Below the pieces are notes generated by a model, which was given only the letters and a program-made list of their open reading frames with translations, was not told the DNA's origin and searched no databases. The translations under genes were made by a program, and so were the position numbers. Below are positions 45,617-64,000 of a DNA stretch of 64,000 nucleotides, in pieces. Source of the DNA: Flagellimonas nanhaiensis (GTDB lineage: Bacteria; Bacteroidota; Bacteroidia; Flavobacteriales; Flavobacteriaceae); contig NZ_QTJX01000004.1 of the NCBI RefSeq assembly GCF_003382275.1, positions 124,001 to 188,000 on the forward strand, in the 5' to 3' direction. Positions within the stretch are counted from its first letter, which is position 1; each line of letters opens with the position of its first letter.

Positions 45617-45618
45617 TT

Positions 45619-47021: not shown

Positions 47022-47134
47022 CTTAGTTTTAATATTATACAGCAAATATGAGTCGATGATGAAAAATAAATTCACAAGGTTTCCCTAGGTAAGGGGAAAT
47101 TTTAACAACCTCTTTAAGAGGGAATAACACCTTT

Positions 47135-48387: not shown

Positions 48388-48412
48388 GTTTCCAATCACC
48401 GTAACTTTCTTT

Positions 48413-48447
48413 CCATTCAACTACACATATTGCCTATTCATCTATAG
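48413..48447 (+). promoter_or_regulatory. tandem LytTR-like site before the signalling operon
   Basis: ATTCAACTAC (48415) and ATTCATCTAT (48436) start exactly 21 bases apart. The second copy ends 56 bases before the ATG at 48502. LytTR regulators bind two direct 9-10-base repeats two helix turns apart, so this may be an autoregulatory site of the regulator at 51435. Confidence 0.6.
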
Positions 48448-48501
48448 CTATGGGTAGACTTTACAAGAGATAGGGTTAATTTGTAGGTTCAAAACAACAA
48501 A

Positions 48502-48903
48502 ATGGATATTCTATTTATAGAAGATGACGCTATTGAGACCATGAAGTTTCAAAGAACGCTTTCCAAGCTTAATTCGAAACACAAATTGATTGAAGCTCGA
48601 AATGGGGAAGAAGCTCTGGAATTTTTACAGTCCGAAAAAAAACTTCCAGATGTTATTCTTCTTGATTTGAATATGCCCAGAATGAATGGTATTGAGTTTT
48701 TGGGTAAGCTAAAACAACATGACAAAATAAAATACCTCCCTACCGTTGTACTTACTACTTCTGAAAATCGAGATGATTTATTGGAATGCTACAAAATTGG
48801 CATAGCTGGCTACATCATTAAACCGCTCAAATATGAGGATTATGAGGCCAAGTTGAAGACCGTTTTGGAATACTGGAGCATCAACGAATTGGTCAAAGCC
48901 TAA
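48502..48903 (+). CDS. stand-alone response regulator receiver domain
   Basis: 133 residues, a single REC domain with no output domain. Acidic pocket E7-D8-D9, phospho-acceptor D55 (VILLDLNMP), LTTSENRDD switch region and K107 in IIKPL. CheY-like proteins of this kind pass phosphate in relays. First gene of the signalling operon; 76 bases before the H-NOX gene. Confidence 0.92.
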   Translation: MDILFIEDDAIETMKFQRTLSKLNSKHKLIEARNGEEALEFLQSEKKLPDVILLDLNMPRMNGIEFLGKLKQHDKIKYLPTVVLTTSENRDDLLECYKIGIAGYIIKPLKYEDYEAKLKTVLEYWSINELVKA

Positions 48904-48979
48904 CGAAAATAGCGGTTTCACAACAAAACTTACCAAAAAGGTAGACATTTTCCTACTTTTGAGTTAATTGATATAAAGT

Positions 48980-49525
48980 ATGAAGGGAATAGTTTTTACT
49001 GAGTTCTTGGATATGGTAGAAAATCAATTTGGATTGGAAACCGTAGATGAGATCATAGAAGCCTCAGATTTACCATCAGAAGGAATTTATACTTCCGTGG
49101 GCACTTATGAGTTCAATGAAATGGTAGCCTTGCTTCAGAGCCTCAACAAAAAGGTGAATATATCTGTGGACGACCTTTTGCATTCCTTTGGTCACTATCT
49201 ATTTATAAGCCTGGGCAAAGCCCATCCAGAGGTAATCCAGAGTTATACCTCACCAATAGGTCTACTGTACTCCATTGAAGATCATATCCATGTGCACGTA
49301 AAAAAACTATATCCTGATGCCGAGCTCCCAACATTTAAGATTCTAGAGAAAACGGAGACTTCCATTTCCATGGTATATTCTTCTTCCCGAGGGCTATACA
49401 GATTGGCCCATGGTCTTATTGAAAAATGTTTTGAACATTTTGATGCGACCTCAAAAATAACCTTTGAACTTTTAAAGGAAGATGGGAGCGAAGTAAAATT
49501 TGATATTGTTCAAAATGGCCAATAA
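48980..49525 (+). CDS. H-NOX heme-based gas sensor
   Basis: 181 residues, the typical H-NOX length. Proximal heme ligand H104 in the IHVHVKKLYP motif, heme-propionate clamp Y133-S135-R137 (YSSSR), N-terminal KGIVFTEFLDMVE as in the family. No distal tyrosine can be assigned by eye; a NO-selective sensor is likely. In facultative aerobes H-NOX proteins inhibit or steer partner histidine kinases when NO binds. The next gene is such a kinase and overlaps by 11 bases. Confidence 0.92.
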   Translation: MKGIVFTEFLDMVENQFGLETVDEIIEASDLPSEGIYTSVGTYEFNEMVALLQSLNKKVNISVDDLLHSFGHYLFISLGKAHPEVIQSYTSPIGLLYSIEDHIHVHVKKLYPDAELPTFKILEKTETSISMVYSSSRGLYRLAHGLIEKCFEHFDATSKITFELLKEDGSEVKFDIVQNGQ

Positions 49526-51116
49526 TGAGGTAGAACTCTTGACCCGGGCGCTGGAGAGACAGCGAAAGGCCAGGGTTCAGGCCGAGAAAATCTTGGAGGC
49601 AAAGTCCAAAGAGCTCTATGACCTGACCAAACACCTCCGCCATGCCAATTCTAAATTGGAAAACCTTCTGGATGAAAAAGGCGATGATATGGACGCCGCC
49701 TTTCTCAACATTATTGATCCTTACGTGGTTATGGATCTTAATTTTAATGTGCTAAGGACAAATCACTCGGCCAAAGAGTTTTTGGGAGTGGACTACACCG
49801 AGGAATCCATTAACCTTTCAGATTTTGTACATCCAGATTTTGCCCAATATACTGCGGAGTCCATTCAGTCGTTGCTCAAAGTGGGAGTGCTCAGAAACTA
49901 TAGGGCCAAAATCATTTTAAAGGATGGCTCGGAAAAATTTGTGCAGATCAATTCAAGCCTTATTTATGACCATGAAGGTAAACCCATGGCAGCCCAAGGT
50001 ATTATTAGGGACATTACCCAGGAAAAAGAGATAGAGAGCTTACTTTCCGAACAGCGAAAGGAACTCGATGTAATTGTGGAAAACTCACCTTTAGGGATTG
50101 TGTTAATGGTAGAGGGGCAAATTGTAAAGAGCAACACGGCCATGCAGAACATGTTGGGCTATTCCCATGAAGAACTAAAGCAAATCAAACTTAAAGATAT
50201 CACCGCCAATGAAGATATGGCCAAGTCAGAATCCTATTTAAAGGAGATGAAGTTGGGTAAGTTGGACCATTTTATTCTCAACAAAAGCTATATCAAAAAG
50301 GACGGAACCAAATTTCTGGCCAAAACATCCGTAAGTGCCGTTAGAACCACAGAGGGTGAAATCGAATATCAGGTTGCCATAGTGGAGGATATTACGGAAC
50401 ATAGACAGCTTGAGCTTCAAAAAGAACAACTTTTGAAGCAATTACGGGCAAGCAATAAAGAACTTCAAGAATATGCCCATATCGTCTCGCATGATCTAAA
50501 ATCCCCTTTACGGAGTATCAGTGCGTTGGCCAGTTGGCTGGCCGAAGATTATGCAGATGTCTTGGATGGCAACGGGGTGAATCAACTACAGATGATGCAA
50601 GAGAAGATCGAGGGCATGGATAAGTTGATTGATGGAATCTTGACCTACTCCAGTATAGATAAGAAAACCAATGAAGACACTGAAGTTGATGTAAACCAGG
50701 TTATTTCAGAAATCAGGGAAATCATATTTATACCTGATCACGTAAACGTGGTCATTATGGACACGTTACCCACCTTAATGGCTGACAAAACCAAGATTCA
50801 CCAATTGTTCCAAAATCTAATATCCAATGCTGTTGTTCATATCCGTAAAAAGGATGGATTGGTGAAAATACATGGTCATGAAACCAGCACGCATTGGCAG
50901 TTCAGTATCAGTGATAATGGTATTGGCATCCCCAAAGAATATCATGAAAAAATATTTAAAGTATTCCAATCGTTAGAAACATCAGAGCAATCCACAGGAA
51001 TAGGTCTTTCAATTGTAAAAAAGATTGTAGACCTCTACGAGGGAGAAATTTGGTTGGATTCTGAGGAAGGAAAGGGTACAACCTTTCATTTCACTTTAAA
51101 AAAACAATTGCTATGA
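49515..51116 (+). CDS. PAS-PAS histidine kinase, H-NOX partner
   Basis: 533 residues from ATG 49515, which overlaps the end of the H-NOX gene. An N-terminal coiled coil (ELLTRALERQRKARVQAEKI) like those of H-NOX-associated kinases, PAS 1 (about 62-175), PAS 2 (about 185-295), HisKA with H326 (IVSHDLKSPL), then N box (FQNLISNAVVH), SDNGIGIPKEY and TGIGLSIVKK. No membrane helix, so it is cytosolic. It should sense NO via H-NOX. Confidence 0.92.
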   Translation: MANNEVELLTRALERQRKARVQAEKILEAKSKELYDLTKHLRHANSKLENLLDEKGDDMDAAFLNIIDPYVVMDLNFNVLRTNHSAKEFLGVDYTEESINLSDFVHPDFAQYTAESIQSLLKVGVLRNYRAKIILKDGSEKFVQINSSLIYDHEGKPMAAQGIIRDITQEKEIESLLSEQRKELDVIVENSPLGIVLMVEGQIVKSNTAMQNMLGYSHEELKQIKLKDITANEDMAKSESYLKEMKLGKLDHFILNKSYIKKDGTKFLAKTSVSAVRTTEGEIEYQVAIVEDITEHRQLELQKEQLLKQLRASNKELQEYAHIVSHDLKSPLRSISALASWLAEDYADVLDGNGVNQLQMMQEKIEGMDKLIDGILTYSSIDKKTNEDTEVDVNQVISEIREIIFIPDHVNVVIMDTLPTLMADKTKIHQLFQNLISNAVVHIRKKDGLVKIHGHETSTHWQFSISDNGIGIPKEYHEKIFKVFQSLETSEQSTGIGLSIVKKIVDLYEGEIWLDSEEGKGTTFHFTLKKQLL

Positions 51117-51433
51117 AAGAAAGTCCCAATCTTAAATACATAGACCAGTTGGCCGGAGGAGACAATGAATTCCGTGAGAAATTTATTGGTATATTGAAGG
51201 AGGAATTTCCTTTGGAAAGTGAGGAATATCAAAAGAATATGGAAGGAAGGCTTTTTAAGGTCGCTTCTGAAAATGTACATAAAATAAAGCATAAGATCAA
51301 TGTGCTGGGGCTTCACAACACCTATACGCTGGCCGTTAGGCATGAAAATGAGTTAAGGAACGGGGAGGATACATTGCATGGCGAGTTTATGGGAATACTC
51401 CAGGACATTCAATCTTACCTAAAAACCATTTAA
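51113..51433 (+). CDS. histidine phosphotransfer (HPt) protein
   Basis: 106 residues, all helical. The phospho-acceptor is probably H56 in NVHKIKHKINVLGL, which fits the HxIKG-type HPt motif apart from the glycine. It overlaps the kinase gene by 4 bases and precedes the LytTR gene by 1. It should move phosphate between the kinase, the receiver at 48502 and the LytTR regulator. Confidence 0.82.
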   Translation: MKESPNLKYIDQLAGGDNEFREKFIGILKEEFPLESEEYQKNMEGRLFKVASENVHKIKHKINVLGLHNTYTLAVRHENELRNGEDTLHGEFMGILQDIQSYLKTI

Positions 51434-51434
51434 G

Positions 51435-52145
51435 ATGAACTGTATTATCATAGACGATGAAGCTGCTGCAAGGGCCATAGTGGCACAACTTTGCTCCCAA
51501 ACACCAGATTTACATGCCGTAGAGGAGTTTGAAAGTGCCATTGAAGCTATCAAGTTCTTGAACCAGAATTCAATCGATTTGGTTTTTTTGGACATTCACA
51601 TGCCGGGGTTTACCGGTATAGATTTCATACAGACTTTAGGAAATCCCCCTAAAATTGTGATGACTACTTCAGATACTGATTTTGCAATAGCCTCTTATGA
51701 ATATGAAGCTATCGTTGATTATCTCGTAAAACCGATTACCCCAGAACGATTTGCAAAATGTGTTCAAAAGGTGAAGAACAGTATGGCGACAAAATCTCAG
51801 GCCATGGACAGTTCCGATACGGAGAACTCTGTTGGGGAAGATCTCTATATTAATATAGATAGAAGGTTGATCAAACTAAAATACAGGGAAATCCTTCTGA
51901 TTGAAGCCAAGGGGGATTATATCAATATAAAAACAGAAGCGAAGGATTACTTGGTGCACACCACCCTTAAAAAGATACATAGTAAGCTTCCGGATGAGAT
52001 GTTCTTGCAAATACACCGTTCTTACATCATCAATTTTAACAAGATTATTGATATTGAGGACAATAGTGTCCTTATTGAAAAAAATGTAATACCGATAAGC
52101 AGGTCCAACAGACCAGAGCTTATGAGGCGTCTGAATCTTCTTTGA
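51435..52145 (+). CDS. LytTR-family response regulator
   Basis: 236 residues. REC domain: D7-D8, D53 in FLDIHMPG, K near 98 (YLVKPITPERF). LytTR DNA-binding domain from about 130: DLYINIDRRLIKLKYREILLIEAKGDYINIKT, with HTTLKKIHSKLP and FLQIHRSYIINFNKI. Output of the phosphorelay. Its probable sites are the 21-base-spaced repeats upstream of 48502, 55056, 56692 and 63987. Confidence 0.93.
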   Translation: MNCIIIDDEAAARAIVAQLCSQTPDLHAVEEFESAIEAIKFLNQNSIDLVFLDIHMPGFTGIDFIQTLGNPPKIVMTTSDTDFAIASYEYEAIVDYLVKPITPERFAKCVQKVKNSMATKSQAMDSSDTENSVGEDLYINIDRRLIKLKYREILLIEAKGDYINIKTEAKDYLVHTTLKKIHSKLPDEMFLQIHRSYIINFNKIIDIEDNSVLIEKNVIPISRSNRPELMRRLNLL

Positions 52146-52166
52146 ACCGCTTACCGTTCACAATTT

Positions 52167-52180
52167 CCGTTTCGTCTACA
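52167..52180 (+). promoter_or_regulatory. single half-site of the LytTR-like motif
   Basis: CCGTTTCGTCTACA matches one unit of the motif but has no partner 21 bases away on either side. It lies after the LytTR gene and 90 bases before a 36-codon open frame. It may be chance. Confidence 0.25.
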
Positions 52181-52268
52181 TCTCTTTTGAATTGGACGCC
52201 TAGCCGCTCATTTTGGGGTATCTATGAAATAACTTTGACTCCATAGATAAACCCGTAAAGCTAGATAT

Positions 52269-52379
52269 ATGAAAGCCCTTATACTTACATTCGCCCTTAG
52301 GCTATTGATTTCTGGTCTAATGAGCATTGTCTCAGCCGTTGTGGTCTTTACTACATTATCCATAAGCGGATTGCTCTGA
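52269..52379 (+). CDS. 36-residue hydrophobic peptide
   Basis: ATG 52269 to TGA 52379. The chain begins MKALILTFALRLLISGL and is one hydrophobic helix with two basic residues at the start. A strong terminator follows 12 bases after the stop, so it looks like a transcribed small unit. No family is recognised. It could be a small membrane regulator or a type I toxin. Confidence 0.4.
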   Translation: MKALILTFALRLLISGLMSIVSAVVVFTTLSISGLL

Positions 52380-52391
52380 TCATGGAGAAGC

Positions 52392-52417
52392 AAAAACACC
52401 CTTCGGGGTGTTTTTTT
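52392..52417 (+). terminator. strong terminator with TTCG tetraloop
   Basis: AAAAACACCC (52392-52401), loop TTCG, GGGTGTTTTT (52406-52415), then more T. Ten pairs and a stable tetraloop. Ends the transcript of the LytTR operon and/or the small gene. Confidence 0.9.
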
Positions 52418-52776
52418 AATGCGCTTGACAAGTAAAACGCTATTACAAGAGAACAAGATGTGTTGGTAATAATTTGATGCCCAGAATAGCAAAATGTACT
52501 GCGTAAGACTCATCAAGCGTTAGCGATCCAGACCTGGATCATTTTGTTGTTTTGAACTCCCCGACTCCTTTGGGGAGTTTTTTTGTTTATAGGCATGGGT
52601 TAATTTTGAATGAACGACCACCACCCATCAGGTTGAATCAAACAAATTAAGATGAGAATATGACCTATTAAGGTAGTATGGACTCAATAGGCTTACCTAG
52701 AATCATAGGATAGAAAGGAAAAATTGCTTCTGGTTTGATATGAATTAATAGGCAATATCTGAATCTCCATTCACCT
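52418..52776. other. gene-free stretch with a hairpin and a second terminator
   Basis: About 360 bases. GATCCA-GACC-TGGATC (52525-52540) is a perfect hairpin, 15 bases before a terminator (52555-52584). TTGACA at about 52426 could be a promoter element. Hairpin plus terminator without an open frame suggests a small RNA. After 52585 only the end of the minus-strand TPR gene follows. Confidence 0.4.
52555..52584 (+). terminator. intrinsic terminator of an orphan transcript
   Basis: AACTCCCC (52555-52562) pairs with GGGGAGTT (52572-52579), 9-base loop, then TTTTT. There is no plus-strand gene between this and the terminator at 52392. Confidence 0.85.
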
Positions 52777-54840
52777 TTATTTTGAGGCCAATTGACCTTG
52801 GAAGATAGGTTTGTTTGTAAGCAGCCATTTCACCTGAAGCCCTACTTCAGTGAATTCAAACCCTGTGGCTACCGCAGATGAAATATTGCTGTACTTCCCA
52901 TATAACCCTCCTCCAAATCTTTTGGAGAATTGATGTTTGATTTGTGCTTCCATTCTAAAAATGGCTGTCTTGGGATTTTCCTCCACTTTTTGCAAGCCCG
53001 AAGCTGCATTTAACCTATATGATGTTTTATATGAGAAATTCCCTCCAATTTCAGCAAAGAATTCCCCAGCCTGGTAATTTTCTGGACTGAAATAAATCGT
53101 AGGGACTTGTTCACTGAAAGCAATATATTGATAGTTTACTCCCAACTTAAGGTTGGGCTTCCGGAGTACGGTATAGTACAATGAAGTAAACAATAGATCT
53201 CGTTGGTTCTCATCACTTTGTTGCGTATGCATTAACTGGGTATACCATCCCAACCCAAAATTGGTTTCAATGTTATAATTGAGACCATAGTGTTCCATTA
53301 CAATTTCTCGTTCAATAAGATCGGAATTGAAGTTTTGTACTTCACGCTGATAACCAATTTCCAGATTTTGAAGTCGATATGGTTCCGTGATCATTTTAAG
53401 ATTTAGTATGGGCTGCGTATATCCATTGTCCATAAATTGGGCACGGTTCAGGCCGAGGCCGGCATGTAATTTCAACTTTGGTCTTAGACTATAGGTAAGT
53501 CCCGCTGAAACGGCATGAAGGGAGGCTTTGTTATTGGATACTGAATTTTCCGTACGTCTGTATTGATAGTTTACAGTTGATTTTAATTTGGCGGAAAGTG
53601 GAAATTCAGCCTTTGTGTTGCTGGTGTAGGCAATATTGTTGCCATTGTCAAAACTATAAGCAACAAGCTCTTCCACGAAGGGGCTATGGGAACTTTTTAT
53701 TTTTTCTATTAGGGATTGGGCGTCTTTTTGATTTTCATACAATTCCAATGTCTTTTGGGCGGCCAAATAGGCCTTTTTGATATGACCCAAAGCAAAATGC
53801 GCATTGGCCTTTCCCAAGTTTCCATCAAAAGAAGTACTATCTGAGACCAAAATGGCATCATATTGGGCCAAACTGTACTTTATGTTTCCGGTATACATTC
53901 CCAATGTGGCCTTTAGGGCCAAAACCCAGTTTCTGTTTGGGTACTGTATAGAAAGATTGTCGATAAAGCTTCTGGCCTTAACATATTTATGGTTCCAAAT
54001 AAGGGCCTGGGCATATCGTTCCAATGTTTTTTCTTGAAGCTCCGCATCATCATTGGGTTTTAGTTTTTCTTTAGATGATAGAGCAAAGGCAAGTGCGGCC
54101 TTTTCTTTTTTACCGATGTGTTCTGCCAATGCTATGCCATTTAGCGCAACGATGGAATCTACACGCGTAACTGCCATCTTTTGATAAGCAGCCTTCGCCT
54201 TGTCCACATTTTTTGTCATTAAATGGATATTGGCAAGTCCCAATAAGGTTTCACGGTCTTGTGGAAAATTATTCAAATTTAAATGCAAAACCTGTAGAGC
54301 ATTATTGTATTTCTGGGCCATCGCCAACTTGTGGGACAATCCCAATTTGATATACTTTTTTGAAATAAGTGCACTTTTGTTGTTAGGTTTTAGACTTAGG
54401 GCTCTATCTATCCAAATTAAAGCCTCTTCGTACTTTTCAACATTACTGAGACTATTGGCATAGCCAAGTACGGCACTAAACTCTTCAGGGTGATTTTCTA
54501 CCAGCTCTTCATAGAGCAATTCGGCCTCTTCATATTTTTTTGACCAAAGAAACGATTCATAATAATTGATTCTGACTTCAAAATCATTGGGTAGTTTACC
54601 AATCAATTTTCCAAAATGTTGATTGGCAATATCTGGACGACCATTGAGTCCAACAGCTCTACCATAACAGATTTGAGCCGTTCTATTATCTGGATGATTC
54701 TCTAGATAGGTTTGGAAATAAATCTCCGCTTTGGAAAAATCTCCCTTTTCAAGAAGTTGAAAACCATTTTCCATGGAATCTTGTCCGTACACTGTACAAA
54801 CAAAAAGTAAACCGAGTACTGTTCTTACAATTGGGTTCAT
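52777..54840 (-). CDS. TPR protein with C-terminal outer-membrane barrel
   Basis: 687 residues. Signal peptide to about residue 19. About ten TPR units from 20 to 380 (for example GDFSKAEIYFQTYLENHPDN, EEAELLYEELVENHPEE). From about 400 onward, alternating strands with aromatic girdles (HAVSAGLTYSLRPKLKLHAGLGL, FTSLYYTVLRKPNLKLGVNYQYI) and a last strand ending in LLTNKPIFQGQLASK. The layout equals exopolysaccharide exporters such as PelB, BcsC and PgaA. Sequence identity with these is not visible. It is divergent from the STAS gene and alone on its strand. Confidence 0.8.
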   Translation of the reverse strand: MNPIVRTVLGLLFVCTVYGQDSMENGFQLLEKGDFSKAEIYFQTYLENHPDNRTAQICYGRAVGLNGRPDIANQHFGKLIGKLPNDFEVRINYYESFLWSKKYEEAELLYEELVENHPEEFSAVLGYANSLSNVEKYEEALIWIDRALSLKPNNKSALISKKYIKLGLSHKLAMAQKYNNALQVLHLNLNNFPQDRETLLGLANIHLMTKNVDKAKAAYQKMAVTRVDSIVALNGIALAEHIGKKEKAALAFALSSKEKLKPNDDAELQEKTLERYAQALIWNHKYVKARSFIDNLSIQYPNRNWVLALKATLGMYTGNIKYSLAQYDAILVSDSTSFDGNLGKANAHFALGHIKKAYLAAQKTLELYENQKDAQSLIEKIKSSHSPFVEELVAYSFDNGNNIAYTSNTKAEFPLSAKLKSTVNYQYRRTENSVSNNKASLHAVSAGLTYSLRPKLKLHAGLGLNRAQFMDNGYTQPILNLKMITEPYRLQNLEIGYQREVQNFNSDLIEREIVMEHYGLNYNIETNFGLGWYTQLMHTQQSDENQRDLLFTSLYYTVLRKPNLKLGVNYQYIAFSEQVPTIYFSPENYQAGEFFAEIGGNFSYKTSYRLNAASGLQKVEENPKTAIFRMEAQIKHQFSKRFGGGLYGKYSNISSAVATGFEFTEVGLQVKWLLTNKPIFQGQLASK

Positions 54841-54946
54841 AGGTTAAGCTTTTTGATGTCTGCCAGATTACATTGGAATTGGCCGACAATTATAGGTATG
54901 GTAAAGGTACGATGGCCCTTCCCACACCGGAAGTGCGATAAATACC

Positions 54947-54977
54947 ACTCGTCTACAGTAATCGGTGATCCATCTAG
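54947..54977 (+). promoter_or_regulatory. tandem LytTR-like site before the STAS gene
   Basis: ACTCGTCTAC (54947) and ATCCATCTAG (54968) start 21 bases apart. The second ends 78 bases before the ATG at 55056. The site also lies 106 bases upstream of the divergent TPR gene and could serve both. Confidence 0.5.
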
Positions 54978-55055
54978 GACGGACGATTTAGAACATCAAT
55001 CTAGAGGATATTTGCTTCAACAAATCGTTTAAACTTAACTCTAAAACCTACAGTT

Positions 55056-55358
55056 ATGGCTTTACAAATTACAGAAGTAAGTGGTGTTTTTTCTGTACAC
55101 GGAATACTTGACAGTTCAAATGCCAATGTTTTAAATCGACATATGAACAGGTACATTCAACCAAATAATCCTGTTATTTTAAATCTTGAAAGGGTCCAGC
55201 AAATGGATGCCACTGCGGCATACGTTCTACAACAACTTTATGCCCATGCGATGAGTTCCAATAGTATTTTGGCCATTATAGGAAGGCAGAACAAAAATTT
55301 ACTTTCTGTGTTCAACAAAACCAAAACCTCTTACATCTTGAGCAATGACCGTGTCTAG
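55056..55358 (+). CDS. STAS-domain protein
   Basis: 100 residues, one STAS domain: VFSVHGILDSSNANVL, VILNLERVQQMDATAAYVL, LAIIGRQNKNLLSVF. The usual phosphorylatable serine of anti-anti-sigma factors is replaced near MDATAAYVL (DSSG would be typical), so phospho-control is unlikely. It overlaps the flippase gene by 14 bases. It may control or dock to the polysaccharide machinery. Confidence 0.82.
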   Translation: MALQITEVSGVFSVHGILDSSNANVLNRHMNRYIQPNNPVILNLERVQQMDATAAYVLQQLYAHAMSSNSILAIIGRQNKNLLSVFNKTKTSYILSNDRV

Positions 55359-56574
55359 TATTACCTTAAAAAGAATTTCGCCCCAACAGCTTTTTATGAT
55401 AAGTGTGTTGGTGGTCAACGCAGGAAATTATCTCTACAATTTGCTGTTGGGGCGTTTCCTGGGACCAGAAGTGTTTGCTGAAGCAGCACTTTTGGTCACT
55501 TTGCTGTTGGTTTTGTCCTTTTTGGGAATGACTTTTCAATTGGCAATGGCCAAGTTTACGGCACAATTACCATCAAATCAGTGGGAAGCCTTTAGGGCTA
55601 GAATCAATAAATATGCCCTTTTGTTAGGTTGTGCCATGGGAGCCTTGTTGGTCTTTGGTGCACCTGCCCTACAACAATTGTTTCATACTGAGAGCGCCTT
55701 CATGTTCAGGATTTTTGGTATTGGTGTTCCCATTTATTTTCTGATGAGTGTAAACCGTGGGCAATTCCAGGGCGAGGAGGATTATGCCAAGCTCTCCCTT
55801 TCATACCAATTGGAAATGTGGGGGCGCTTAATCATTACCTTTTTGGTCTTGGTCTTGTTCGGCAAAGAGTATGGCACTTTGGTAGCCATTGGTATTGTAG
55901 CATCGCTCTTTTTGGGGCTTTTTCCAATGAAAAGGATAAATCTCGGATTACGTGATATCATCAAGATCGATAAGCATAATCTTGATCTAGTCAAGAAATT
56001 TATGTGGATAACAGCCTGCTACGAATTGACCCAAATCATCATTAACAATAGTGATATACTATTGGTGAAGCATTTTTTTAGTCCCGAAGAAGCTGGACTG
56101 TATGCTTCATTGGCATTGATTGGTAGGGTGGTCTACTTTGTAGCCTGGATGTTTGTAATGCTACTTTTGCCTACTGTAGTAAAGCTAAAAAAGAACGGCG
56201 AAGAGACTTCTCCGGTTCTTTTTAAATATGTGGGTTATATAAGCATGCTTTCCAGTGTAATTGTCCTGGCGTGTGCCATTTTCCCAAAGTTGATCATTAC
56301 CATACTTTTTGGAGAAGCTTACGTGGGTATGGCAGGTCTATTGTGGCAGTATGCTTTGGCTACGTCCTTATTTGCCATTGCCAATATCTTTACCTACTAC
56401 TTTTTGTCCTTGGAGAAGTATACTCCTATTTGGTTTTCGGCAATCTTTGGGGTATCACAAATAGTTCTTGTCATCTTTTTCCATAGCAGTCTTGCATTTG
56501 TGGTACAGCTTCAGATTGTGGTAATGTTGGCTTTGTTGGTGACACAACTACTTTATTTTGTTGCAAATCGTTGA
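55345..56574 (+). CDS. polysaccharide flippase (Wzx/PelG-like)
   Basis: 409 residues, about twelve hydrophobic segments. Start of the polytopic part NAGNYLYNLLLGRFLGPEVFA and inner loops with basic residues match the oligosaccharide flippase/MATE-like superfamily. It starts inside the end of the STAS gene, ATG 55345 (or GTG 55351). It should move a lipid-linked or growing glycan over the inner membrane. Confidence 0.82.
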   Translation: MTVSSITLKRISPQQLFMISVLVVNAGNYLYNLLLGRFLGPEVFAEAALLVTLLLVLSFLGMTFQLAMAKFTAQLPSNQWEAFRARINKYALLLGCAMGALLVFGAPALQQLFHTESAFMFRIFGIGVPIYFLMSVNRGQFQGEEDYAKLSLSYQLEMWGRLIITFLVLVLFGKEYGTLVAIGIVASLFLGLFPMKRINLGLRDIIKIDKHNLDLVKKFMWITACYELTQIIINNSDILLVKHFFSPEEAGLYASLALIGRVVYFVAWMFVMLLLPTVVKLKKNGEETSPVLFKYVGYISMLSSVIVLACAIFPKLIITILFGEAYVGMAGLLWQYALATSLFAIANIFTYYFLSLEKYTPIWFSAIFGVSQIVLVIFFHSSLAFVVQLQIVVMLALLVTQLLYFVANR

Positions 56575-56599
56575 ACTAGATTATCGCTAGAGCCTTTCC

Positions 56600-56630
56600 A
56601 TTCGTCTATACTTGTTTGCCAACCATCATC
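56600..56630 (+). promoter_or_regulatory. LytTR-like site before the GT4 gene
   Basis: ATTCGTCTAT (56600-56609) is a good copy. The second position at +21 (56621, AACCATCATC) keeps only the CATC core. The first copy lies 82 bases before the ATG at 56692. Confidence 0.45.
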
Positions 56631-56691
56631 CATATCCACTTTTTGAATCGGGTTTGAAAGAAATTTGAAATAGAAAATTAAACTTAACCTC

Positions 56692-57927
56692 ATGAAACTA
56701 GCAATTGTTACGGCGTATCCGCCAAGTAAAGTTACCTTAACAGAGTACGGATATCATTTGGTAAAACACTTTAGACTTCAGGAAGAAGTCAGTGAGATAA
56801 TATTGCTGACGGATAAGACCGATGCTCCAAAAGATTTGGATTTTAAACAAAATGGCTGTCCAATTACCGTCAAGGAGTGTTGGAGCTTCAATAGCTATAA
56901 AAACCTGTTTAAAATCGTAAAAACCATCAGGGATGAGCAACCAGATGCGGTATTGTTCAACCTTCAGTTTTTGAAGTTTGGGGATAAAAAAATCCCCGCT
57001 GCACTTGGACTGTTGTTGCCTTTTATTTGCAGATTGATGAAGATACCTACAATTTCATTGCTTCATAACATTTTGGAGCAAGTGGATTTGGAAAATGCTG
57101 GGATTACCAACAATGGAATCCTTCAGAAAGTCTACAACTTCATTGGAAGTTCACTCACACGTTTTGTTTTGGCATCCAACGTACTGGCGGTGACAATAAG
57201 CAAATACAAAACCATTCTTGAGAAAAAATATAAGGCCAGAAACGTGGCGCTGGTGCCCCATGGTTCTTTTGAGACCCCGCCCCAACCAGATTACAGTTTG
57301 CCCGAAGGACCTCTTCAAGTGATGGCTTTCGGTAAGTTTGGAACCTACAAGAAGGTAGAATGCTTAATTGAAGCTGTCGAACACGTACGTCTAAGAACAG
57401 ACCTCGACATAGAAATTGTAATCGCGGGAACCGATAGCCCAAACACGCCTGGTTATTTGGAAGATGTAAAAGAAAAGTATAAAGAAGTGGCGCAACTCAG
57501 ATTCACGGGATATGTTGCTGAAGAGGATGTTCCAAAAATCTTTGGTGAGAGCGCAATGGTTGTGTTTCCCTACACTTCCACCACCGGAAGCTCAGGTGTG
57601 CTGCACCAAGCTGGAAGTTATGGCAAAGCTGTAGTATTGCCCGATTTGGGAGATTTAGGGATATTGGTTAGGGAAGAAGGGTACCAAGGAGAGTTTTTTG
57701 AGCCAGGGGACATTAAATCTTTGGCCAATGCCATAGAAACCATATTGATCAACCCAGACCACAGGATACATTTGGGCATACAGAACTACAAGGCGGCCTG
57801 CTCGTTGCCAATGTCCAAAATCGTGGAAATGTACATCGATTACTTCAAGGCCATTCAATTAGCGAATATTTCTAAAAAATCAATGGATTTGATTGGACAT
57901 CCCAAAATAAAGTCCACTACAATTTAG
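56692..57927 (+). CDS. GT4-type glycosyltransferase
   Basis: 411 residues, GT-B fold. N-terminal IVTAYPPSKVTLTEYGYHL, the acceptor half; nucleotide-sugar half with VMAFGKFGTYKKVECLIEAV, LRFTGYVAEEDVPKIF, then FPYTSTTGSSGVLHQAGSYG as the donor-binding region. The second Glu of the EX7E motif is replaced here by a more polar stretch. A partner of the flippase gene, as PelF is of PelG. It has its own promoter site. Confidence 0.85.
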   Translation: MKLAIVTAYPPSKVTLTEYGYHLVKHFRLQEEVSEIILLTDKTDAPKDLDFKQNGCPITVKECWSFNSYKNLFKIVKTIRDEQPDAVLFNLQFLKFGDKKIPAALGLLLPFICRLMKIPTISLLHNILEQVDLENAGITNNGILQKVYNFIGSSLTRFVLASNVLAVTISKYKTILEKKYKARNVALVPHGSFETPPQPDYSLPEGPLQVMAFGKFGTYKKVECLIEAVEHVRLRTDLDIEIVIAGTDSPNTPGYLEDVKEKYKEVAQLRFTGYVAEEDVPKIFGESAMVVFPYTSTTGSSGVLHQAGSYGKAVVLPDLGDLGILVREEGYQGEFFEPGDIKSLANAIETILINPDHRIHLGIQNYKAACSLPMSKIVEMYIDYFKAIQLANISKKSMDLIGHPKIKSTTI

Positions 57928-57944
57928 GTTTTTAGGTTAAGTGC

Positions 57945-57984
57945 GGAAATGGGGATAATTCTTAATTGTCCCCTTTTCCATTTT
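57945..57984. terminator. bidirectional terminator at a convergent pair
   Basis: GGAAATGGGGATAATT (57945-57960) pairs with 57964-57979 with one mismatch and one U-G pair, loop of 3, with T-rich ends. It includes the stop codon of the minus-strand hydrolase gene (57962-57964) and serves both sides. Confidence 0.75.
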
Positions 57985-59494
57985 TTATGATAACGTCGTA
58001 TGCTGGTTTTTTCTCTCCTTTGTTGTTCAGTAAACCAAAACGTTTTTGATAAGCTTTTCGCCAGGGCAATTTACCTACTACACTATTGGGAATATGATCA
58101 AAGTCGTGCAAGGTCCAGATAAAGAACGGAAGCTGCTCCTTGTTCAAAAATGTCTGAATATTAGAATGATATTTAGCTTGACCGCTTTGGGAACCCAAGA
58201 AGAGATTCCAAAAACCGCTATAGCTTGATTTACCATATTCCTGAAGCACTATGGGTTTATCTACATTCTCCTTAAGTTTTGAATAACGAGCAGGGAGTTC
58301 TTCAGCATCTTCGTAATAATGGAACGAAACAAAATCCACATATTCGGAAAGATGGGTTGCGGCTCCAGGATTAGACCAACCTATGGTAATGGGATGTGAG
58401 GCATCCCACTCTCGTATTTGCTGGACCATTTCTGTCAACCATGCTTTGACCAATGTTTCGCTTCTTTGTTCAAAATCAAGGTCAGGTTCATTTTTAATAT
58501 CCCAACCCAACAATGAAGAATGGTCTTTTAAATGGGTGACCAACTGTTCAGCATGTCTATGGGTTAAAGTCCAATCTGAAATGCTGTAGTTCCCATAAAA
58601 ATCGAAAAGAGTGATCAAAACTTTCAAATTGTGCTCTTGGGCAATATCCAGTAATGTGGATAGTTGTTCCAGATATTCGTTTTTGAGGTTGGCCCCACCT
58701 GAAGCTTCGTACGGAACAAAGATTCTTATGGCGTTCATATCCATTTTCTCCAACAGCGCAAAATCTGTTTTAATGGCCTGTTCGTTGAATTGATCGCCAA
58801 ACATATTCCATGCTTGTTCCTTGGGGTAATAATTGATTCCTTTTAAACCTTGAACGGGTATATCTTCAGTTTTATCCAGTACGGATACAGGTAAATGTTC
58901 GCTAGAAACTTTTATCAACTGTCTAATTCGCCAAAAACCATCTTCCAGTAGCATAATGACTTTATAGGTACTCTTACTTTTTTTGGCATGAATAAAATTT
59001 CCGGACTCGTATACTTGGTCATACTGCTCTACATTATGATCAGTTAGTACAACCAATTTTCCATCAAGACTATAAAACTCCAATGTGGGGTGATGCAAAA
59101 GGGTAGTGCTTTTGGTTTGAATATCTATCGATTTATTATGTTCCAATAGCTCCAGAAGACTGGAACGGGCATCTTGGGTATAGTAATCTGCAATACCATC
59201 ATAAACATAATTGTTCAATGCCAGGTTTTTTGCGTACCATGCTCCCAAATAGTCTTTTTCCAAATCAACCAAGGTCTGCTTTTCCATTTTTCGACCCTTT
59301 TGCTTTTCAAGAGTCCATTTAATTTTGGGCTGGTATATCATTTCCAAATCTTGACCAATATGAAGCATGGAAGATTTGTCCGCCCCAGTATTTAAAAAAC
59401 TCCAAGCAGCGGCGATTCCATAGATGATGACCGCATTAATTGCCAAAAAACTAATGACCAACATGGCCCTGTATATGTTCTTCTTATGGATCAT
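57962..59494 (-). CDS. membrane-anchored GH5-like glycoside hydrolase
   Basis: 510 residues. Anchor helix at about 10-31, a NTF2-like domain at 60-210 (YLGAWYAKNLALNNYVYD, then WRIRQLIKVS), and a TIM-barrel hydrolase from about 225: GINYYPKEQAWNMFG, IRIFVPYEASGG, LGWDIKNEPD with acid/base E336, HYYEDAEELP and VLQEYGKS with nucleophile E419. A polysaccharide cut or transfer at the outer face of the inner membrane is likely, as for PelA or BcsZ in other systems. It overlaps the lipoprotein gene by 4 bases. Confidence 0.85.
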   Translation of the reverse strand: MIHKKNIYRAMLVISFLAINAVIIYGIAAAWSFLNTGADKSSMLHIGQDLEMIYQPKIKWTLEKQKGRKMEKQTLVDLEKDYLGAWYAKNLALNNYVYDGIADYYTQDARSSLLELLEHNKSIDIQTKSTTLLHHPTLEFYSLDGKLVVLTDHNVEQYDQVYESGNFIHAKKSKSTYKVIMLLEDGFWRIRQLIKVSSEHLPVSVLDKTEDIPVQGLKGINYYPKEQAWNMFGDQFNEQAIKTDFALLEKMDMNAIRIFVPYEASGGANLKNEYLEQLSTLLDIAQEHNLKVLITLFDFYGNYSISDWTLTHRHAEQLVTHLKDHSSLLGWDIKNEPDLDFEQRSETLVKAWLTEMVQQIREWDASHPITIGWSNPGAATHLSEYVDFVSFHYYEDAEELPARYSKLKENVDKPIVLQEYGKSSYSGFWNLFLGSQSGQAKYHSNIQTFLNKEQLPFFIWTLHDFDHIPNSVVGKLPWRKAYQKRFGLLNNKGEKKPAYDVIIKNGKGDN

Positions 59495-60714
59495 TTGGAT
59501 TCTTTGCCGATTTGTTTGGTTGTACCGCCCACAGCGACGAGCATGTTATGCAATTTTTCATCAAAAAAATCTGGTAGATCTAGGAGGGCCCTTCCTTTTC
59601 TTGAGGTGGTTTCAATTTCATGGATTGTAGTTCCTTCCTGATTTTGAATTTCCACAGTTATCAATGACCCATCAGGAACAAGTTGTTGCATATAACCCTG
59701 AATGGGACCAATGGAAAGCTGTTGGCCATCTTTTGAAAGCTGAATGGAGAAATCAGAAACTGCTTCTTCAAAATTCACTTCCAAGATATTGCTGTTGGCG
59801 CTTCCACTAACATTTGCCTTAACAATCCAATGGGATGGTTTTTCCGGATGCAAAAGCTTGCCTGTTGCTACGCCATTTATGGTTTGCCCTATTGTTTTTA
59901 AATAGTTATCGCTATCATCCTTAACCAAAAAATTCACCAAAGTTCCATCTGCTACAATATTGCTGTTTCCATCTTTGATGGGGGTAGTGGTGAATGAAAC
60001 GATTTGGTTTCCATCAGCAAAAGAATGTACGCGGTTGACTTCAATTGAAAAATCAGTGGCATGTGTTGGCAAGACCCCTACCGTAAATTCTTTGGATGCC
60101 TGATCTCCGTAGTGAGCACCTATAAAATAGGTGTCTTTCGATTTACCTGCCGTTATGTACTTAAAGGCATACATATTCTCACTGCGTAAGGTATCTGTAC
60201 TGAAACGCCCTTTAGTTTTCAAAGTGGTGATAACTTGGGAACCATCTGGCATAGGGTTGCCGTACTTATCCTGGGGAAGAGCGACCATCATGGTATGGTC
60301 TTTTCCATCTGCAAAAATATCCGTGGGACCCACATATACTTCCATATCTTTCCCCTTGACAGGATTTGGTGTTATGAGAAAAGCGCCTGTTGAAACCTCA
60401 TTTTCCAGATACTTTAATTGCCAATCTACCCAACCCGCTTTTTTTGTCATGAAATTTGGCAAGGTGAACACCATTTGTTTTGAATCCATATCTGGATAAA
60501 GCACTGTTGTTCCCCATCCATTTTGGACCACAAGCAGCAGATTCTTTCTCTTTTCTTCTTCAAATGATAGTTGAATGGGTGTACCAGAGGTAAATTCAAG
60601 CTGTTTTGAAACCAATGATAGACCACCATCCAATTCAACCACCTTTTTTAAGGAAGGTTCTGAACAACCTAAAAGGCAGGCATAGACAACTAGTAAAAGA
60701 GAAAAGCGTTTCAT
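59491..60714 (-). CDS. lipoprotein with invasin/Ig-type repeats
   Basis: 407 residues. Lipobox LLGC, cysteine at 17. Two or three beta-sandwich repeats of the Big/invasin type: DIFADGKDHTMMVALPQDKYGNPMPDG (cut here for length to its key parts FADG and GNPMPDG), and HSFADGNQIVSF with NIVADGTLV, then LVPDGSLITV. They would form a rod in the periplasm. It lies between the GH5-like and the large membrane protein genes, 1 base from the latter, so a shared complex is likely. Confidence 0.75.
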   Translation of the reverse strand: MKRFSLLLVVYACLLGCSEPSLKKVVELDGGLSLVSKQLEFTSGTPIQLSFEEEKRKNLLLVVQNGWGTTVLYPDMDSKQMVFTLPNFMTKKAGWVDWQLKYLENEVSTGAFLITPNPVKGKDMEVYVGPTDIFADGKDHTMMVALPQDKYGNPMPDGSQVITTLKTKGRFSTDTLRSENMYAFKYITAGKSKDTYFIGAHYGDQASKEFTVGVLPTHATDFSIEVNRVHSFADGNQIVSFTTTPIKDGNSNIVADGTLVNFLVKDDSDNYLKTIGQTINGVATGKLLHPEKPSHWIVKANVSGSANSNILEVNFEEAVSDFSIQLSKDGQQLSIGPIQGYMQQLVPDGSLITVEIQNQEGTTIHEIETTSRKGRALLDLPDFFDEKLHNMLVAVGGTTKQIGKESK

Positions 60715-63700
60715 TTACTTCGGGTTACCAATGTAATTATTGAGTTCAATCTTTATAAAATCATATCCTTTTCCATCCAAGGGAGTTAACATGTCTTGTT
60801 TTTGGCTTGCATCCTTATTTGTAGAAAATCTTTGGGACACTTCCTGGTTAGGAATACCGTTTACGTAACAATTATCCAAACTTTCGTGTATTACCTTCAA
60901 TTTACTTATATCGATTTTGGGCAGATTAAAATCCTGTTTACGTTGAACCCTAATACCTTCCAACAAAAACTTATGATCCACCCAAAGGATATTTTGTCTA
61001 TCACCGTAATAAGAAACTAAGATTTGAGGAACCGTAACTTCTTCAATACCGTGGTTGAACAATGTTCCTTTAATAAAATCATCTTGCAACGTCATGTTTT
61101 GCATGGAAACGGATTTATAGAGGTCTGTAGTGGCAACATTTCCAGCGCACTGAAGGTCAAAATTAACCGGCTCTTCATCAAGGGCTACAGGGGTAAATTC
61201 GTCAGGATTAAAGGTTGTCGGTAGGGTATCCTGCATTTTGGACCAAGCAATACCTTCAAAATCAATTCTAAAAACACTGGTCTCTTTTGGCATCAACTTA
61301 TGTTTGATGTGGTATTTGACATCATGTTGGGCCAGCATTTTATCTTTGCAATTATACAGGGTTCCCTTTAGGGAAATATCTGCAGGAACGTTATCAATAT
61401 TCTGTAGTTCGCCAATTATACTGTAGCGCCCTTTGTACTTGACCAATTTGGAAGAGATAATTTCTAGAAGCGGCTGTCGTAAAATGTCTTCATGATAGGT
61501 CTGCTGCGTGGTAATTCTCCTCCTACCATGATTGTAATATGTGGTCTGATTTGAAGTAATCAATTGATTGGGAGGAATATCATGATTCTTTTCTTTTGGT
61601 TTTATGAACCATTTTCCTTGTGTTTTGACTAGACTATGGTGGTATGTCCGACTTATTTTTTCCAACGGAGTGATCCATTTGGTGAAAACCTGCATCTCTG
61701 CCGTATTTTCAGAATGGTTTTCAATTTGGGCTCCAATGGAATCCAATTTTGCATAGGAACTCAAAAGTCCATCAGTTACGGACACTTCCAACATGTATTG
61801 TGAAAGGGAAACATTTGCATTTGGGGCCAAATAGGAATGTGCGCGTTTAAATTCCTTGAAATCAAGTGCATCATAGTACGCTTTAACCACATTTTCTGGA
61901 CTTATTTGGGATGAGTTGTGGATATAGAACAAATAAATTCCTAGAATTGAGACAATTAGCATGGCTCCAGCCCAGGCAGCACTTATCACATACAGCAATT
62001 TTGTGAAGCCATTATATTTTGGTGTATGTCCAAAAAATGGATGCATCCGTGAATTTTCCTTGAGCTTGTCATACCAGCGGAACTGAATTTTGAAAATGAA
62101 GGCTAAAATCAAGGTTCCCAAAGGAATCAATCCCCACATTACTTTTAAATAGTTGGGTACGGTTTCCTTCGGAATGATTTTTGGCAATGGGGGGATGTTC
62201 AATCGTTCCCAGACCATAATGCCGTTTTCCAGTTGCTGCAACCGCTGCCATCCACAGAAAAACAGGATAGGGTCATAAAACTTATCATTGGAAAAAATAT
62301 ATTTAAGATTATACTTTTCTGGTACGGTCAAAAACTGCTGTAATGACCCAATACCTTCAATTCCCCTAAACTTGGAATTTTCTAGCCTTTCTACCGCTCG
62401 AGTGGTCAGTTCTGGGAGTCTTCTGGCTGAGTGGTAATTGCCATCTACGGTCATTGCGTTGGTCAGCGTGGACAGCCATGCCATTTGATCACCAAATCCC
62501 AAAGTAAGATATCGCCATTGATCGTGTTGGTCCTGGTTTAAAAAGTTGACTATGGGTAGCATTTTTATTTTTTGTGGTTGCGATGGCCTGAAATAATTCA
62601 GGCTCATTGTAAAAATGGCAATAGCCATAAAAACTACTCCCATACCACCTGCCAATACATAGTGCACTGGTTTTTTGAAGGAATCCAGCAATTGGGTTTT
62701 CAGGTCCCCTTCTACAAGTCTATAAGCAAATTCTCCGAACAGGGGCAAAGCCATGATGGTTGCCCACAGGGTAAAACGGTCCAATGTCAATATTTCAAAA
62801 GCAGTTTCACCCAAAAGCATTCTGGGAAGGGGAGTGGTTCCTCCTGTTCCCAATAGGGCAAGCATGGAAAATGAAAGCCCAAAGAAGAGTAGGCGTTTGC
62901 TGTAAAATCGGTAGAACAAATAGGGCAATATGAGCAACAAAACACCCCATGGAATAAGGAAAAAGACCAATCCCGAGGAAGCCACTTCAAAGAAATTATC
63001 ACGAGACCCATGGGGAATGGGCACCTGTGTGATTGGGTTCTTTTTTGAATTTACCCAATAGGGTAAAATACACAATATGATAAATACTAGTGAACCTCCT
63101 CCAAAGATTGTTATGCGCCAAAAGAACTTTTTAAATTGATTGAAAAATACCTTGAAGGTAATAGCTTTGGTATGTTTCACCGCTTCTTTTGAGGCATCCA
63201 TGATCACCATTCCAATCAAAGGAAAAATGAAAAAGACCATCCCAAATATTGGGGTAACATGGTGGGAGGTCACTGTGACTGCAATCAAGGAAAAAGATGT
63301 CAATAAATAGCGCGGCCTCCCTGTTTTGATCCATTTGTATATTTCTGGAAGTGTATGGAGGAGAACAGAAATTCCCATTATACTGGGCAATTGCCCAAAA
63401 ATGTGTAAGGTTTCCAGGAACATGGAGGAGAATACGGCCAATAATGCCGAATAACCGGCAATCTTTTTATCCCCACAGATTAGCAGCGCAAACTTGTAGA
63501 TTCCGGTAATAAAAAGAACAATAATGATCATGGACATTAGATAGAGACCAAACTTCAATCCTCCAAAAAAGGAAAGTATGGCAATACACTGATGTACCAA
63601 TGGAGGGTATCCTTGCACCGTAAACCCGGTGTACCACCTATAATCCCATGGTTCAAACCAATCTTTGGCATAATGGTCGGCAAAAAATAGATGTATCAAT

Positions 63701-63801
63701 GCGTCATAGGTCGACTCCAAAGTGAAGAAGATGCTCGCCCCATGAAAAATTAGGCCAAAAACTAGAGCCAAGGCCAAGGTAATGTTGGTTTGCCGTTTCA
63801 T
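60715..63801 (-). CDS. large GT-C-like membrane protein with periplasmic domains
   Basis: 1028 residues. About twelve hydrophobic segments between 8 and 600. In the first loop stands FADHYAKDWFEPWDYRWYTG, then YPPLVH, the pattern of the PTPS_related/GT-C group, in which an acidic pair binds the lipid-phosphate sugar donor. From residue 625 one helix, then an NTF2-like domain (ENVVKAYYDALDFKEFKRAH), similar to the one in the GH5-like protein, and two beta-sandwich domains (ELQNIDNVPADISLKGTL). First gene of a three-gene minus-strand operon. Probably transfers a sugar onto the glycan in the periplasm. Confidence 0.75.
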   Translation of the reverse strand: MKRQTNITLALALVFGLIFHGASIFFTLESTYDALIHLFFADHYAKDWFEPWDYRWYTGFTVQGYPPLVHQCIAILSFFGGLKFGLYLMSMIIIVLFITGIYKFALLICGDKKIAGYSALLAVFSSMFLETLHIFGQLPSIMGISVLLHTLPEIYKWIKTGRPRYLLTSFSLIAVTVTSHHVTPIFGMVFFIFPLIGMVIMDASKEAVKHTKAITFKVFFNQFKKFFWRITIFGGGSLVFIILCILPYWVNSKKNPITQVPIPHGSRDNFFEVASSGLVFFLIPWGVLLLILPYLFYRFYSKRLLFFGLSFSMLALLGTGGTTPLPRMLLGETAFEILTLDRFTLWATIMALPLFGEFAYRLVEGDLKTQLLDSFKKPVHYVLAGGMGVVFMAIAIFTMSLNYFRPSQPQKIKMLPIVNFLNQDQHDQWRYLTLGFGDQMAWLSTLTNAMTVDGNYHSARRLPELTTRAVERLENSKFRGIEGIGSLQQFLTVPEKYNLKYIFSNDKFYDPILFFCGWQRLQQLENGIMVWERLNIPPLPKIIPKETVPNYLKVMWGLIPLGTLILAFIFKIQFRWYDKLKENSRMHPFFGHTPKYNGFTKLLYVISAAWAGAMLIVSILGIYLFYIHNSSQISPENVVKAYYDALDFKEFKRAHSYLAPNANVSLSQYMLEVSVTDGLLSSYAKLDSIGAQIENHSENTAEMQVFTKWITPLEKISRTYHHSLVKTQGKWFIKPKEKNHDIPPNQLITSNQTTYYNHGRRRITTQQTYHEDILRQPLLEIISSKLVKYKGRYSIIGELQNIDNVPADISLKGTLYNCKDKMLAQHDVKYHIKHKLMPKETSVFRIDFEGIAWSKMQDTLPTTFNPDEFTPVALDEEPVNFDLQCAGNVATTDLYKSVSMQNMTLQDDFIKGTLFNHGIEEVTVPQILVSYYGDRQNILWVDHKFLLEGIRVQRKQDFNLPKIDISKLKVIHESLDNCYVNGIPNQEVSQRFSTNKDASQKQDMLTPLDGKGYDFIKIELNNYIGNPK

Positions 63802-63863
63802 TAGTTCTTGTAAGAAAATATAACACTATAAAGATCAAAATATTGTTAAAAAAACTGATTACA

Positions 63864-63896
63864 GCCCGTCTATCGAGTTTTACCATTCATCTATAG
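63864..63896 (+). promoter_or_regulatory. tandem LytTR-like site before the gene at the window end
   Basis: GCCCGTCTAT (63864) and ATTCATCTAT (63885) start 21 bases apart. The second ends 92 bases before the ATG at 63987. It also lies upstream of the divergent operon that starts at 63801. Confidence 0.55.
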
Positions 63897-63986
63897 TTAA
63901 TTGATTCTCAACTTTTTTAACTCCTTTTGAAGGAATGGTAGCAGTAATTTTGATTCAAATTGATTACAATACTTAAACCTTAACCT

Positions 63987-64000
63987 ATGAAAATTTTGGC
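63987..64000 (+). CDS. 5' end of a gene (partial)
   Basis: ATG followed by AAA ATT TTG, preceded by TTAACCT as in the gene at 56692 (AACTTAACCTC before its ATG). Only 14 bases are in the window. MKIL is consistent with a glycosyltransferase start, but nothing can be claimed. The LytTR-like site upstream is the reason to believe it is real. Confidence 0.4.

Follow-up and report, generated by a model that had tools for sequence, protein, structure and literature searches.

We describe a putative LytTR regulon in a 64,000-nucleotide stretch of the Flagellimonas nanhaiensis genome (NCBI RefSeq assembly GCF_003382275.1, 4.03 Mb in 19 contigs; contig NZ_QTJX01000004.1, positions 124,001 to 188,000, forward strand; hereafter the window). 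Direct repeats phased at 21 bp precede an operon that encodes a predicted haem-nitric oxide (NO) sensor of the H-NOX type and a REC-LytTR transcription factor (gene 51435), and the same repeats precede several genes of an adjoining putative surface-glycan locus (Table 1; gene identities are family matches). From sequence comparison, we consider it likely, with a probability of roughly three in four, that these repeats serve as operators for the REC-LytTR protein, which would act at the end of a pathway leading from NO through H-NOX, a kinase and a phosphorelay to the glycan genes.

Phased repeats and their spacing to the promoter

An earlier note on this DNA had listed eight units close to ATTCRTCTAT in four intergenic pairs. 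All eight are found at these places, with unit starts 21 bp apart in every pair. The note also put the units 56–92 bp before plus-strand start codons, which holds for the distance between the second unit's last base and the ATG; counted from unit starts, the range is 66–123 bp. The unit consensus is CCATTCRTC(T/G)AY, and the 21-bp period places at least two direct repeats of about 9 bp within the spacing range of known LytTR operators, which are described as 9-bp direct-repeat pairs spaced 10–13 bp apart, with three repeats in RcoM1 and CoxC (PMC11347149). Four pairs in the window score at least 16/20 (48415, 54947, 63864 and 63885, the last two overlapping as one site); 200 dinucleotide shuffles contain on average 0.35 such pairs and never more than 3. 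For the 56600 pair the score is 15/20, and at that score or higher the shuffles contain 3.3 pairs on average. Its second unit, 56621, had been called weak and is retained here: the +21 position before the GT4 gene is conserved in all seven genomes compared, reading AACCRTC in five and the close variants GTCCATC and AGCCACC in the others.

A genome-wide search for exact CCATTCRTCTATA gives two matches, both within this locus, and at one mismatch there are 15 matches versus 9 for a reversed control. The two-unit pattern with up to two mismatches gives six matches, three of which are sites 1, 2 and 4, versus none for the reversed pattern; with up to three mismatches there are 28 versus 7. The looser setting is too permissive, because among the 17 matches that are not known sites (20 of the 28 were examined with their loci) 13 fall inside open frames of more than 100 codons. 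Held-out two-unit matrices, trained on 20–21 sites without the F. nanhaiensis genome and without the promoter under test, placed 48415, 54947, 56600 and 63885 ahead of all other window positions (about 128,000) in four of four tests.

A 73-column profile built from 20 sites, all from other genomes, was also applied, with stricter filters in the genome scan. In the window the four sites are its top four matches, site 1 having an E-value of 0.011 and the next match 0.075. In the complete genome the best three are sites 2–4 (3.5e-12, 4.8e-5 and 1.4e-4), followed by a match at 0.0097, and site 1 is not among the matches listed; the scatter of equally scoring random matches that the earlier note had named as a danger is thus not seen. 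In 70 genomes there are 25 matches at E ≤ 0.001, 20 of them training sites, and 24 lie in this type of locus. The five that are not training sites are three of the F. nanhaiensis sites, the H-NOX-operon site of genome G015, and one in G003. This last match (C120:17356-17426, E 2.6e-5) lies outside this locus type, downstream by eye of a dTDP-rhamnose-type gene pair, and no plus-strand open reading frame of 80 residues follows it within the locus examined.

The sites also share a fixed spacing to the promoter. We refer to the unit with consensus CCATTCRTCTAY as the anchor, and the –7 box NAnnTTTG lies exactly 60 bp from it (+60) in all 23 STAS, GT4 and receiver-GT2 promoters compared, which represent three unrelated promoters in nine genomes, one site having been placed by hand. 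Site 1 differs in detail: 48394/48415 is the pair kept in relatives, a third unit, 48436, follows in phase, and a –7-like box, TTAATTTG, lies by eye at +61 from 48415. The promoter rule (anchor, second unit at 21 bp, –7 box at 60 bp) is predictive. Applied to the window, it revealed a fifth site that the earlier note had missed, ahead of an open reading frame of 36 codons for a predicted hydrophobic protein. A profile of five relatives, with the window held out, recovers this frame at E 6.4e-7 among 1037 small open reading frames of the window, the next being at 0.49. Differences between all pairs of six sequences fall mostly at third codon positions (149, 80 and 303 by position), a coding-like pattern. 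A profile that includes the window copy finds related frames at the same place in loci L186, L187, L190, L194, L196, L203 and L212. Exact NAnnTTTG stands at +60 of an anchor with at least 10/13 matches in the window, L187, L196, L203 and L212, and the box reads TTTA in L186, L190 and L194; four Zobellia loci have a 38–39-residue type in this position. By eye, a hairpin with a T-run follows the window copy at about 52394–52417; it is not listed by a terminator scan.

A further pair in the F. nanhaiensis genome (C8:1130093), 2.6 kb upstream of another LytTR gene, was considered as an additional regulon member and is not counted because by eye it fits a separate CATTCATCAAT class. Such CATTCATCAAT pairs form a second class of 21-bp intergenic repeats, found also in the genus loci L084, L100, L101, L103, L105, L107, L111 and L112. 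No LytTR gene lies within the 3-kb loci around these nine intergenic pairs (that at C8:1130093 being L018).

Conservation of sites and gene order in the Flavobacteriaceae

Gene content was compared in 71 genomes of the genus (Flagellimonas/Allomuricauda). H-NOX is present in 31 and the 1028-residue gene of the glycan locus, searched with its first 370 residues, in eight. Seven of these eight carry it on one contig with H-NOX and in the same order; in the eighth, G061, H-NOX was not found in a genome that is 79% complete, the contig being 28 kb. The anchor precedes the STAS gene in eight genomes, GT4 in seven and receiver-GT2 in eight, nine genomes in all with F. nanhaiensis included, and degenerate units of the ATCCATC, AACCATC and TTCCAAC types stand at +21. 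The paired units to which the earlier note had drawn attention are conserved in orthologous promoters. The H-NOX-operon promoters of clade I retain units at –21 and 0 and have, by eye, T-rich –7-like boxes at 59–61. For clade II, 22 of the 23 genomes were compared (the G081 contig, which is truncated, was left out); NAnnTTTG in the corresponding promoter is at +60 in 21 of them and at +61 in one. Most clade II operons also have a FIST gene and a second kinase, with STAS next, and beyond STAS the clade II locus L114 has a glycosyltransferase, a receiver-sugar transferase and export-type genes.

For a wider survey we took the best 80 of 577 named relatives by H-NOX alignment. All are Flavobacteriaceae and partly overlap the genus set; genes were detected with chosen queries, as distinct from full annotation, and anchors were picked blind to both the –7 box and the second unit. 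REC1 is present in 80 loci, Hpt in 77, LytTR in 74 and FIST in 51. The box stands at +60 in 53 of 123 anchors, and the next most frequent offset, 39, accounts for six; a recount without one filter gives 57 of 129, again with six at the next offset. Reversed and permuted patterns yield 8 and 11 anchors in the same loci, compared with 129. Second units matching at 6/7 or better lie at –21 in 35 and at +21 in 33 of the 123 anchors, with six at the next position. Anchors that are paired or boxed are oriented with the operons in 95 of 96 cases, and all 95 lie between detected genes; 80 of them are within 400 bp of REC1 (57), GT4 (8), flippase (8), STAS (5), DUF4114 (1) or receiver-GT2 (1). When loci are scored with a matrix from all clade I sites (one training genome is also L183), a score of 15 bits is reached on the forward strand in 62 of the 74 LytTR loci and on the reverse strand in one locus of 80. 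Promoter orthology and shared ancestry inflate these counts, and the best guards against inflation by kinship are the held-out two-unit matrix test and the equal spacing across unrelated promoters.

Six of the 80 loci lack LytTR. Three are on contigs shorter than 7 kb (L197, L198 and L211) and have the site before REC1; three are intact (L189, L199 and L205) and keep the H-NOX sensor operon, Hpt, flippase and GT4. No forward-strand site is present in these intact loci, with maxima within the locus of 2.2, 2.1 and –0.1 bits respectively. Together these three make up a single clade (100/98 support) nested among Arenibacter relatives that do have LytTR, so that the loss of LytTR is one event and only suggestive.

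Proposed pathway and alternative interpretations

As the earlier note had stated, 51435 is the only LytTR gene of the window and lies in the operon behind site 1, and Pfam matches bear out its LytTR domain and the HNOB domain of the sensor. The operon order is REC1, H-NOX, PAS histidine kinase, Hpt-like protein and REC-LytTR. In H-NOX the haem-ligand residue H104 and Y133-x-S135-x-R137, an instance of YxSxR, which we take to be the H-NOX motif, are invariant in nine homologues. The receiver of REC-LytTR has a phospho-accepting D53 that is invariant in nine sequences. We propose that H-NOX would bind NO and tune its partner kinase, and that phosphate would pass to REC-LytTR, probably via the Hpt-like protein. 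Phospho-LytTR would then bind two, sometimes three, head-to-tail units two helical turns apart, set at a constant distance ahead of the –7 box, and, judged by operator position, most likely activate transcription. The predicted targets are its own operon, the gene for the 36-codon hydrophobic (membrane) protein, the STAS-flippase unit, GT4 and receiver-GT2. The earlier note had suggested this regulon apart from the 36-codon gene, and the company of LytTR and H-NOX across the 80 loci, together with the missing forward sites in the LytTR-less clade, supports it.

NO would thereby set surface-glycan production transcriptionally, without cyclic di-GMP. GGDEF domains were not found in the F. nanhaiensis genome or in 69 of the 70 genus genomes searched, with 8 of 14 control genomes positive; EAL and HD-GYP domains were not searched for. 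The sole GGDEF domain found in these genus genomes lies at G090 C12:612545. NO control of biofilms is described mainly via cyclic di-GMP (PMC8738867, PMC8846402), and since GGDEF is found in only one of 70 genomes the locus provides a specific hypothesis, open to testing, of how NO might be linked to the surface in such bacteria. It suggests a link from NO to the surface coating of marine flavobacteria that dispenses with the usual second messenger. A broader scheme, which we regard as speculative and rather doubtful, is a two-pronged NO relay throughout the Flavobacteriaceae, again without second messenger: phospho-LytTR would switch on glycan genes from rigidly placed operators, the relay would also phosphorylate receivers tied to glycosyltransferases, and the 36-residue membrane protein would tune the machinery. 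The receivers would be that of the receiver-GT2 fusion here and, for the sister clade, a receiver encoded on its own next to a receiver-sugar transferase fusion.

Several observations tell against the pathway as proposed or against its attribution to 51435. Scores of the 73-column profile in the genome and the window are inflated by promoter orthology, and the held-out two-unit matrix is the fairer test. Exact NAnnTTTG at +60 occurs in none of the eight clade I H-NOX-operon promoters. In G015 the anchor and promoter end were set by hand, the site (L113:13398) lies 261 bp before STAS, and there is no site directly ahead of that gene. Among the family-wide anchors 33 of 129 are isolated, and 15 of the 95 on the operon strand precede no query-detected gene, several of these 15 preceding the microprotein frame. 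Twelve of the 74 LytTR loci score below 15 bits, five of them below 6 (for one of these five, L221, the contig ends at REC1). A Pfam search with the F. nanhaiensis Hpt-like protein gives no match; its orthologue in L114 matches Hpt at 1.4e-4 and 22.5 bits, under the 24.6 cut-off. The genome has 27 LytTR domains, one of them in the window, so linkage alone is no proof of a regulator-site pair. The reverse strand of L189 scores 14.0 bits, and as a natural experiment the LytTR loss carries little weight, being one event seen at the locus only.

An alternative is that the linked LytTR protein binds the repeats but represses, or that NO relieves repression, which differs from the proposed pathway in sign only. 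The LytTR protein CoxC does repress, from three repeats that overlap the –35 box (PMC11347149). Here the operators lie further upstream: the flavobacterial –7 box is placed at –12 to –5 (PMC9723704), and therefore the anchor falls at about –72 and the proximal unit at about –51, upstream of the core promoter as far as sequence can tell and in an activator position, and most LytTR-type regulators are described as binding upstream of –35 and activating (PMC11347149). We regard repression as unlikely.

The sensor ligand could also be O2, redox or something else, in which case the regulon would not be NO-responsive; the H-NOX family has been described as sensing NO or O2, with one member acting as a redox sensor (PMC7108781). 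What makes this quite unlikely in our view is the addition of a FIST protein of the NosP type to the operon in 51 of 80 loci, although the present operon is without it, FIST/NosP being a second family reported, cautiously, as NO-binding (PMC8846402). The H-NOX operon of F. nanhaiensis has no gene with FIST and FIST_C domains, and the one FIST copy in the genome lies elsewhere, beside a histidine kinase (L263, C1:981925). NO-bound H-NOX inhibits HnoK in Shewanella, and in a different system NosP acts on a kinase of its own (PMC8846402, PMC8738867).

The sites might instead be operators of a different LytTR protein encoded elsewhere, the linked one being a mere neighbour. The many LytTR domains of the genome and the further 21-bp repeats in the genus, such as the CATTCATCAAT pairs, make this conceivable; we judge it improbable, as all but one of the 25 profile matches at E ≤ 0.001, training sites included, are in this locus type, the clade without linked LytTR has no forward-strand site (one event), and 57 of the 95 operon-strand sites precede REC1, the first gene of the LytTR operon. 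Attribution of the sites to 51435 draws on synteny together with that one loss event. Chance AT-rich sequence is a negligible explanation, already refuted by conservation and phasing even though the window has many single units matching at 8/10 (59 on one strand and 65 on the other).

Genes of the locus and related systems

The proposed operators resemble those of AgrA/ComE-type regulators and of RcoM and CoxC in having two or three head-to-tail units of about 9–10 bp with a 21-bp period upstream of the promoter core, and RcoM and CoxC likewise serve gas sensing, of CO (PMC11347149). They differ in the consensus CCATTCRTC(T/G)AY and in the Bacteroidota –7 box, and here the gas sensor would be a separate protein with a kinase relay. 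Unit sequences of AgrA and ComE entered this comparison as general background. As in the HnoX-HnoK-HnoB/HnoC systems of Shewanella and Vibrio, an H-NOX gene lies beside a kinase and the predicted output runs through a response regulator, with transcriptional feedback (the HnoC branch in Shewanella) and effects of the biofilm type (PMC8738867, PMC8846402). Here, by contrast, the pathway is predicted to end in a LytTR transcription factor that governs glycan genes, with no EAL or GGDEF domain among the genes identified (EAL not having been searched for). AlgR of Pseudomonas, a LytTR protein, governs exopolysaccharide (alginate) genes, much as is proposed for the LytTR protein here; to our knowledge AlgR is not part of an H-NOX operon. 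Among the open-licence PubMed Central matches listed, no title or abstract opening links H-NOX, LytTR and polysaccharide, and the review PMC6769237 contains both H-NOX and LytTR.

Table 1. Repeat sites and genes of the window discussed in the text
Feature	Position	Strand	Basis or content
Site 1	48394..48445	+	in-phase units 48394, 48415, 48436 ahead of H-NOX operon; orthologous units in 8 genomes
REC1, single-domain response regulator	48502..48903	+	Pfam Response_reg 2.2e-22
H-NOX (HNOB) haem-NO sensor (predicted)	48980..49525	+	Pfam HNOB 2.9e-39
PAS-PAS-HisKA-HATPase histidine kinase	49515..51116	+	Pfam domains
Hpt-like phosphotransfer protein	51113..51433	+	HKIKHK invariant in 6/6
REC-LytTR transcription factor	51435..52145	+	Pfam LytTR 1.6e-19, Response_reg 2.5e-18
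Site 5 (new)	52170..52200	+	units 52170, 52191; –7 box TAACTTTG 52230-52237 at +60
36-codon hydrophobic open reading frame	52269..52379	+	preceded by site 5
TPR protein	52777..54840	-	TPR matches; synteny-conserved in locus
Site 2	54947..54977	+	units 54947/54968; –7 box GATATTTG 55007-55014
STAS-domain protein	55056..55358	+	Pfam STAS 1.4e-9
Polysaccharide flippase (Polysacc_synt_3)	55345..56574	+	Pfam
Site 3	56600..56630	+	units 56600/56621; –7 box GAAATTTG 56660-56667
GT4-type glycosyltransferase	56692..57927	+	Pfam
GH5-like glycoside hydrolase	57962..59494	-	family match
Protein with Invasin_D3 (Ig-like) match	59491..60714	-	conserved in locus
1028-residue glycan-locus protein	60715..63801	-	Pfam: no match
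Site 4	63864..63915	+	three units 63864, 63885, 63906; –7 box TAATTTTG 63945-63952
Receiver-GT2 fusion gene start	63987..64000	+	377 residues, runs past window edge (L036:987-2120)

The receiver-GT2 fusion matches Response_reg (6.1e-30) and Glycos_transf_2 (3.1e-20), and its D51 and K100/K101 are invariant in seven of seven aligned sequences. In the sister clade (L114:14643-16217), the stand-alone receiver and the fusion of a receiver with a bacterial sugar transferase lie downstream of the LytTR operon, and by eye the usual receiver Asp of the fusion is Glu. The TPR protein perhaps has an outer-membrane barrel, which is a guess. A phospho-switch in the STAS protein was considered and set aside: the Ser/Thr expected at the switch position, which we assume to be two residues past the Asp, is absent in three of eight sequences (L131, L132 and L135). 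The STAS gene of L139 (13427-13726, genome G071) contains an in-frame stop close to the 3′ end, and in G015 a short stretch and a G+C-rich hairpin-like repeat lie between the site and STAS (L113:13398-13659). The nearest solved relatives of this H-NOX are PDB 6bde and 6bdd, for which the molecule name, aldolase, is apparently wrong. A DUF4114 gene whose product is sorted by the type IX secretion system has the same operator and –7 spacing in L133 (7708-10300) and, by site, also in L135, L137 and L139. Just upstream of the H-NOX operon, positions 45098-47962 of the window hold ORF6N, a gene without Pfam match and an RteC-like gene, possibly the edge of a mobile element.

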